This document shows positions 55,104-56,018 of a stretch of 64,000 nt of DNA, one piece after another. Position numbers and translations under genes: made by a program. The notes under the pieces are model-generated. The model was not told the DNA's origin, searched no databases, and saw only the letters and a program-made list of their open reading frames with translations. The first letter of the stretch is position 1, and every line of letters begins with the position of its first letter. The stretch spans positions 228,356-292,355 of the forward strand of contig JAJNNY010000048.1 in the NCBI GenBank assembly GCA_022453515.1. Reading direction: 5' to 3'. This stretch comes from Astrocystis sublimbata (lineage: Eukaryota; Ascomycota; Sordariomycetes; Xylariales; Xylariaceae).

Positions 55104-56018
55104 TCATCTTCTATAACCGTCTTCAGTCCACCAGGAAAATCTGTCGCGTGATGCACTATGCCGATTCACCTCGTGAAGCACGATATCAACAGACTCAAAC
55201 CCTGCGCTGGTAAACTGACGTTGTTCTAGCCGCATCTTCCTCATTTGTTCATAAGTTGGGCCCGTACATCCCCGTGTTGTCCAGAAGAATAAGGTGAATT
55301 TGTTTACCCCCCCAAATATCCTCTCCTGTGTCTCCAAATCGCCTTGCACATCGTCTTGCACGCTAGGAACTTGGGCATCATGGGCCGTCCTTCCATCCAT
55401 GAGGGTGTGGAAAGAGTTAGGAAGTGTTGAATGCCCCTCTTTGATGGGATGGACGGTCTTGTCGTAGGCTAGACCCATGCGCACGCCATCTGGCTGATCA
55501 ATGCAGCCAACTGACAGGGAGTCACCACCCATAGCATGCACCCGCCTGACGCTTTCGAATGCAGTAAAGGGTGGTTGCGCCAGCAGCATATGTCGCCAGC
55601 TCGCATCTTGACGAAGAAATACAAGCCTTGAAACACTCTCGGCCCATGGCGCATCCTTGACGGTTTGAAAGTACGCATCTCCTGCTGAAAACCACAGTGG
55701 CATGTGCTCGACGAGCAGTGGATTGAACTCGCGTATGGGTATGCTATCGGACGAGATGTTCTGGCCTGCTTGAATCTGTCTTGGCCGCATGAATAGAAGT
55801 TCCTGTAGAGTAGGCGAGCTTTTGATCAGCTCTCTCCAACCGCTAGAGACCCTTTGAACCAAGAGCAAGTCTTTCATGGGCAAATGAGCCAAGATGTTCT
55901 CGGCGATCTCGGTAATAGCCCAAGCATCAGCTACTGCAGTAGAGCGTTCGTGAAACTGACGCCTTGATGGTGCCTTATCACTGGTGGTTTTCCGCGCTGT
56001 CTGCTTAGTTCGGGCCAT
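55104..56018 (-). CDS. F-box protein with a histone H3-like N-terminal tail
   Basis: A single exon of 304 aa from ATG 56018. The first residues after Met, [16 protein letters not shown], match the H3 tail ([16 protein letters not shown]) at 13 of 16 positions. R2, T3, K4, R8, K9 and K14 are kept and S10 becomes Thr. The next SRRQF also resembles H3 RKQL with one inserted residue. An F-box follows at about residues 33-78 ([34 protein letters not shown]), the Skp1-binding module of SCF ubiquitin ligases. The remaining ~225 residues look globular with a WW/W-rich end ([11 protein letters not shown]) and no repeat I can name, as in many fungal F-box proteins. I infer a ligase adaptor that presents an H3-tail mimic to chromatin readers or writers. 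Confidence 0.88.
   Translation of the reverse strand: [304 protein letters not shown]

Follow-up and report, generated by a model that had tools for sequence, protein, structure and literature searches.

Why would a fungal F-box protein begin with the tail of a histone? In the 64,000-nt stretch of DNA analyzed here, which we call the window, one gene (Table 1) encodes a protein that a sequence-only reading had described as starting, from its initiator Met, with the N-terminus of histone H3. Alignment with the H3 of the same genome bore this out: the residues shared by the two proteins are A1-K9, T11, K14, A15, and P16, and the mismatches are S10 to Thr, as had been claimed, G12 to Ser, and G13 to Asp. 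Judged from its sequence, the protein is not a histone, only its tail being H3-like; the three families listed at E <= 1 in a Pfam scan include no histone match (PF00125). With Ala first after Met, an H3 sequence occupies the predicted processed N-terminus, as is characteristic of N-terminal mimics, provided that Met is removed.

Table 1. Features of the F-box gene with an H3 tail (window positions; residues of the encoded protein)
Feature	Position	Strand	Observation
F-box gene with H3 tail	55104..56018	minus	Single open frame, 304 codons plus stop, no interruption
H3-tail mimic, Met1 to residue 17 (H3 A1-P16)	55968..56018	minus	13/16 identical to H3
Conserved mimic core ARTKQTAR, residues 2-9 (H3 A1-R8)	55992..56015	minus	2 parsimony changes over 8 sites in 15 tail-bearing rows
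K9-equivalent codon	55989..55991	minus	Changed freely among relatives (7 times in 15 rows)
Variable linker, residues 18-36, probably disordered	55911..55967	minus	Low pLDDT and many changes
F-box, residues 37-69	55812..55910	minus	PF00646, E 4.9e-6, 26.7 bits against a cut-off of 20.5
C-terminal part, residues 77-304	55107..55790	minus	Conserved in the family, recognizable in tail-less F-box paralogues
Candidate intron, 94 nt, GTATGT...CAG	56020..56113	minus	Ends one base 5' of the ATG

Two simple origins of the match were considered and rejected. The first is chance: (i) a degenerate codon pattern that encodes MARTKQTAR matches the window once and 100 dinucleotide shuffles not at all, (ii) in the 42.6-Mb genome the same pattern has two matches, the H3 gene and the F-box gene, and the reversed control has none, and (iii) a looser MARTKQ pattern is found at four genomic sites, of which the two extras, an 11-residue frame and MARTKQARPVER, do not go on as H3. 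The second is a recent copy of the genome's own H3 gene. The comparison of the two genes, proposed together with the original claim, shows that 9 of the 13 codons for shared residues differ, with 9.05 differences expected if the codons were redrawn from the usage of the F-box gene. The synonymous codons are thus randomized with respect to the genome's own H3, so that the amino acids, not the DNA, have been preserved.

The start of the frame is confined from both sides. Upstream of Met1 (position 56018) it is open for six codons only, and the ATG lies in the context CAGC-ATG-G. Further along, no in-frame Met comes before residue 48, which falls within the F-box, so that a downstream start would destroy this domain. 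The F-box itself, also named in the sequence-only reading, was recovered by Pfam, and its predicted fold matches the helical F-boxes of Skp2, FBXO22, cyclin F, FBXO31, and Cdc4. The tail was said to pass straight into the F-box; in fact, a variable linker of about 20 residues, modelled at low confidence, lies between them, pLDDT being below 50 at residues 17-30 of the predicted model. For the C-terminal part, which in F-box proteins usually binds the substrate, Foldseek returned no match at E <= 0.001, and a second structure search covered mainly the F-box. Two paralogues found in the same genome (C86 and C140) share with the window protein an F-box followed by NP(L/I)L...ASWR(R/K)ML...MGxLYD in the C-terminal part and lack the H3 tail.

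Relatives of the protein were collected in one search of 5.8 billion proteins, which defined a family of 27 members, the window protein counted; the 26 relatives are 43-76% identical to it over the aligned part. Many of them come from metagenome contigs. The named ones belong to Xylaria, Neoarthrinium, Pestalotiopsis, an unnamed Xylariaceae, Sarocladium, and Periconia, and those with checked taxonomy are Sordariomycetes (Xylariales, Amphisphaeriales, and Hypocreales) and one Dothideomycete (Pleosporales). The sole named Dothideomycete protein, Periconia P0025, is a 223-residue model on a 3.5-kb contig, and its tail matches H3 up to STGG. Two members without a readable N-terminus (P0011 and P0024) were dropped, which left 25 rows of the alignment for counts on the tail. 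Absence of the tail in all orthologues, named at the outset as grounds for giving up the claim, is not what these rows show: 15 of the 25, the window protein counted, keep A1-R2 and at least seven of the eight residues of ARTKQTAR, down to the most distant tail-bearing relative (P0027, about 43% identical overall). The predicted start of one tail-bearing relative, P0003, reads MMARTK, and there Ala1 is not exposed unless the second Met is used.

In the other 10 rows the tail is degenerate or absent, in some without a trace. Two Sarocladium rows and one sister read MERTKQTD or MEQTKQTD, and in 7 of the 10 residue 2 is no longer Ala (T, E, E, E, D, E, and V, with that Met internal to a longer model in one of the seven, P0023). 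Glu or Asp at position 2 blocks Met removal, and the tail-lost proteins that carry either residue there would no longer present an H3-like end. Since the tail is decayed or absent in 10 of the 25 rows, it is dispensable in some lineages.

The conservation pattern of the tail differs sharply from site to site. With A1-R2 as the only sorting criterion for the 25 rows, five or six of the six residues T3-R8 are kept in the 15 rows with AR (88 of 90 cells) and zero to five in the 10 without. Changes were counted by parsimony on a tree built without the tail and linker. Among the 15 tail-bearing rows, K14 changes 10 times, to be compared with the core and K9 counts in Table 1; mean changes per site are 5.0 in the linker (residues 18-31), 2.0 at residues 32-76 (the stretch that contains the F-box), and 3.4 elsewhere. 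The two changes within A1-R8 are T3S in P0012 and K4T in P0016, both with intact A1-R2, so that, in this alignment, K4 is not absolutely required. In these 15 rows, which were chosen by the tail itself, A1-R8 is more conserved than any of the 286 other 8-residue windows. Over all 25 rows, A1-R8 averages 4.9 changes per site, K9 has 12, and K14 has 14, with means of 8.7 in the linker, 3.5 at residues 32-76, and 6.3 in the rest; A1-R8 is then no more conserved than residues 32-76 because the tail is gone in 10 rows.

These protein changes, together with the codon comparison with the genome's own H3, are the basis on which we consider selection on the mimic well supported; a scan of viral contigs and another of prokaryote contigs found no orthologous DNA of the relatives. 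The protein looks like a genuine natural histone mimic, and its tail has very probably been selected as such.

Which face of H3 is imitated? The sequence-only reading had proposed mimicry of both the K4 and the K9 context. The K4 part stands, A1-R8 being conserved; the K9 part does not hold for the family, in which K9 is Lys in 8 of the 15 tail-bearing rows and Q, M, L, R, S, C, and A once each in the others. The A-R-K(9)-S/T pattern that H3K9-type mimics conserve is not conserved here, though the window protein has Lys, and K9-side mimicry as a conserved function of this family was rejected. As far as these alignments go, the mimic is of the H3K4 side (A1-R8) and not also of K9. Chromodomains and K9 methyltransferases need K9; with this residue replaced in 7 of the 15 rows, H3K9 readers and writers are poor candidates, and it is unlikely that they, chromodomains included, are the conserved partner of the family. 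Two other aligned tail-bearing groups do keep K9. In one relative, P0004, the tail reads ARTKQTARM. K9M in H3 inhibits K9 methyltransferases; the Met of P0004 is probably just one of several free replacements at this position.

We propose that the protein is an SCF adaptor with an H3-like docking arm that recruits the ligase to a reader or writer of the H3 N-terminus; we put the probability of this proposal as a whole at about 0.5. Its steps would be as follows: (i) Met is removed, as the Ala at position 2 would permit under the methionine aminopeptidase rule, so that the chain begins with A-R-T-K-Q-T-A-R and, like H3, would carry a free amino group, (ii) the flexible tail docks on a K4-side chromatin protein that recognizes the free H3 N-terminus, the candidate classes being PHD-type and WD40 readers, complexes that methylate or demethylate K4, and the T3 kinase, (iii) the F-box ought to hold SKP1, and (iv) the SCF ligase, thus brought to the chromatin protein, would ubiquitinate this protein or a neighbor. 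Both the partner and the outcome of docking are inferred. The genome encodes SKP1 and at least 17 PHD matches, and therefore both sides of the proposed ligase-reader link exist.

The conserved span A1-R8 fits, by analogy, the footprint of a reader such as AF10 PHD1. According to the AF10 report, PHD1 holds H3 Ala1-Thr6 in a groove in which the amino group of Ala1 is bonded and must be free, and it does not bind H3(3-10), a peptide without Ala1-Arg2 (PMC8257627). The docking-arm model would be weakened if the N-terminus were acetylated, since this would shut out readers that need the amino group free. It may also be that substrates are really received by the C-terminal part and that the tail has another role.

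An unlikely account, which we nevertheless place first among the alternatives, takes the tail as a regulated switch: H3 enzymes that methylate K4 or R2 or phosphorylate T3 would toggle or move the F-box protein. T3, K4, and R2 are indeed among the conserved residues, and the span recognized by H3-modifying enzymes overlaps A1-R8. However, T3 and K4 are each replaced in one relative with the rest of A1-R8 intact, and A1, Q5, A7, and R8 are no less conserved than the residues that can be modified, a pattern that suggests a docking surface.

It is improbable that the tail serves as an internal lock that binds, in cis, the C-terminal part of its own protein or a partner subunit. The predicted model has low confidence over residues 1-30, the same C-terminal part is kept in tail-less relatives, and the same tail is found on unrelated C-termini. 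A fungal precedent for such a lock does exist: fission-yeast Swi6/HP1, a chromatin protein that also holds an H3-like sequence, is described as autoinhibited by this mimic (PMC7192584).

There is a small chance that the tail was taken over from H3 for nuclear import and does nothing else. In a study of the yeast importin Kap123 (PMC5677370), H3 1-28 acts as an import signal that Kap123 binds and the effect of K14R is minor, and 5 of the 15 tail-bearing rows have Lys (one row) or Arg (four rows) at K14. The same study states that Kap123 contacts K14 and K23 of H3, that import depends on K23 and on a charge at position 14, and that residues 12-17 and 21-26 are the stretches ordered in the Kap123 structure, outside which the conserved A1-R8 lies (PMC5677370). 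As K14 is neither Lys nor Arg in 10 of the 15 rows, a mere import signal is unlikely.

A start further upstream has a slim chance. An upstream 5' intron could place residues before Met1: the candidate intron of Table 1, if spliced to an upstream coding exon, adds an in-frame upstream Met and residues before MARTK and buries the tail, leaving no H3-like free N-terminus. Against this, the Met immediately before ARTK is retained in 15 of the 15 tail-bearing rows, conservation begins sharply at A1, and no CTRAY branch site was found in the 94 nt of the candidate. Barely credible is the view of the tail as a neutral passenger, acquired by capture of an H3 promoter and first exon: the exact position at the start codon is expected from such a capture and the same arrangement recurs in several unrelated proteins, but a passenger would not be expected to keep seven or eight of the eight core residues when its synonymous codons are randomized, K9 has been replaced 7 times and K14 10 times, and overall identity has fallen as low as 43% (P0027).

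The idea that proteins can mimic the H3 N-terminus has already been published. Histone mimicry is known mostly from pathogens and a few endogenous proteins. A paper by Chen et al. from 2021 (Biochem J 478:1943) reportedly deals, to go by its title, with non-histone proteins, said to be human, that imitate the H3 N-terminus and interact with methyl-effector proteins. Compared by title only, these mimics share with our protein the idea of H3 N-terminal mimicry in non-histone proteins; our protein matches H3 at 13 of 16 residues, has an F-box, and is from a fungus. The mimic of Swi6 is distinguished by its position and its K9 register, whereas that of the F-box protein is at the very N-terminus, on the K4 side, and on a predicted ubiquitin-ligase adaptor. 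F-box histone demethylases of the KDM2 type carry reader and eraser domains and are not known to have an H3 tail. An F-box is joined to a chromatin function in both cases (a putative one in ours), but a reader or eraser domain is absent from the Pfam scan of the fungal protein. An engineered fusion, H3(1-12)-AF10 PZP, was made for crystallography with Ala1 free for the PHD finger (PMC8257627). Both proteins have H3 residues placed at the front of an unrelated sequence; the engineered one is man-made and has them on the reader itself, whereas the fungal gene is natural and has them on an F-box protein.

Searches of the open-access literature for H3 tails and mimicry in connection with F-box proteins or fungi (most subscription papers fall outside this scope) turned up no description of an F-box protein with an H3 tail or of H3 tails heading fungal non-histone proteins, in agreement with the statement in the sequence-only reading that no such fusion was known. 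What appears to be new, as read from predicted proteins, is that nature itself has put a nearly complete H3 tail of the K4 side on a predicted ubiquitin-ligase adaptor and that this combination is kept across several Ascomycota orders. If the proposal is true, the H3 N-terminus could serve fungi as an address label that sends proteins to destruction or to another place. The relatives, which vary K9, K14, and singly K4 and T3 and keep A1-R2 and Q5-R8, amount to a natural mutational scan of what the partner needs. Should readers of H3 marks, or antibodies to such marks, recognize these proteins, assays that rely on peptides or antibodies could give misleading results in such fungi.

The sequence-only reading had also suggested looking for other non-histone proteins that start with ARTKQTARK and asking whether they share the F-box. 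The answer is mixed: a distant group and a Podospora protein do have an F-box, but several other tail-bearing proteins have none. A profile search found 41 further related proteins, five of which also begin with the H3 tail, with an identical start in all five: P0087, P0090, P0092 (Stipitochalara, Leotiomycetes), P0094 (Pseudogymnoascus), and P0097 (Cadophora). An F-box scan of four of them placed P0094 and P0097 above the cut-off and P0087 and P0090 just below it. A tree joining the window family with this distant tail-bearing group is not rejected (p-AU 0.433). On a tree of 68 proteins, the tail needs eight changes, five of them forced by starred branches, when P0011 and P0024 are scored as tail-less, and six when these two are left out; such counts cannot tell gain from loss. 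The Podospora protein (Sordariales) has its F-box at residues 161-198 (27.8 bits against a cut-off of 24.3) and is not in these trees.

A search with residues 1-40 of a relative retrieved 37 proteins, 7 from the family and 30 others, the latter at E-values from 0.0024 to 9.4 and mostly resting on about 20 matching residues. We inspected the first 75 residues in all 98 proteins and the whole sequence in 25 of the 30 non-family ones. Four of the 30 are annotated with a histone domain, and 21 of the remaining 26 carry the tail from residue 1, among them the Podospora protein and the smaller groups described below. At least six non-family proteins (P0030, P0031, P0034, P0044, P0048, and P0054) keep H3-like residues beyond residue 20. 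Some of the matches on short contigs may come from H3 genes that are damaged or wrongly predicted, and these were not relied on. As a tentative generalization, with the odds somewhat against it, fungi may have repeatedly headed non-histone proteins with the H3 tail, F-box adaptors perhaps two or three times, which would yield decoys that capture and ubiquitinate readers or writers of the H3 N-terminus. If the decoy reading is true, the histone code would be read off a ligase instead of a nucleosome.

Several smaller groups of tail-bearing proteins were noted along the way. A six-member family (P0032, P0033, P0035, P0036, P0039, and P0051), whose named members come from Talaromyces and Paecilomyces, has 17 of its first 18 residues invariant while identity falls to 40%; three scanned members gave no Pfam match, F-box included, and the mean pLDDT of the predicted structure is 60.6. 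Unlike the window family, it keeps K9, and hence its partner may differ. The tail is also carried by a pair of proteins from Oleoguttula and Cryoendolithus. P0028, from Armillaria mellea, has an H3-like start and two further internal partial copies of the H3 tail. Four coiled-coil-like proteins (P0041, P0047, P0050, and P0055) have the tail at or near Met1, and one of them is named from a grass, Aristida adscensionis; two coiled-coil-like proteins with the tail are similar to it.

The surroundings of the gene were surveyed as well. Among seven neighboring frames scanned at 49022-59812, four were matched, to a P450, an MFS transporter, a piece of a tyrosinase, and a short-chain dehydrogenase, and none to a chromatin family; in its gene content the neighborhood resembles an accessory or secondary-metabolism region. 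Window positions 61000-64000, some 5 kb away from the F-box gene, form an AT-rich contig end (27-38% GC, TA/AT ratio 1.2-1.5) that looks like a repeat affected by repeat-induced point mutation.
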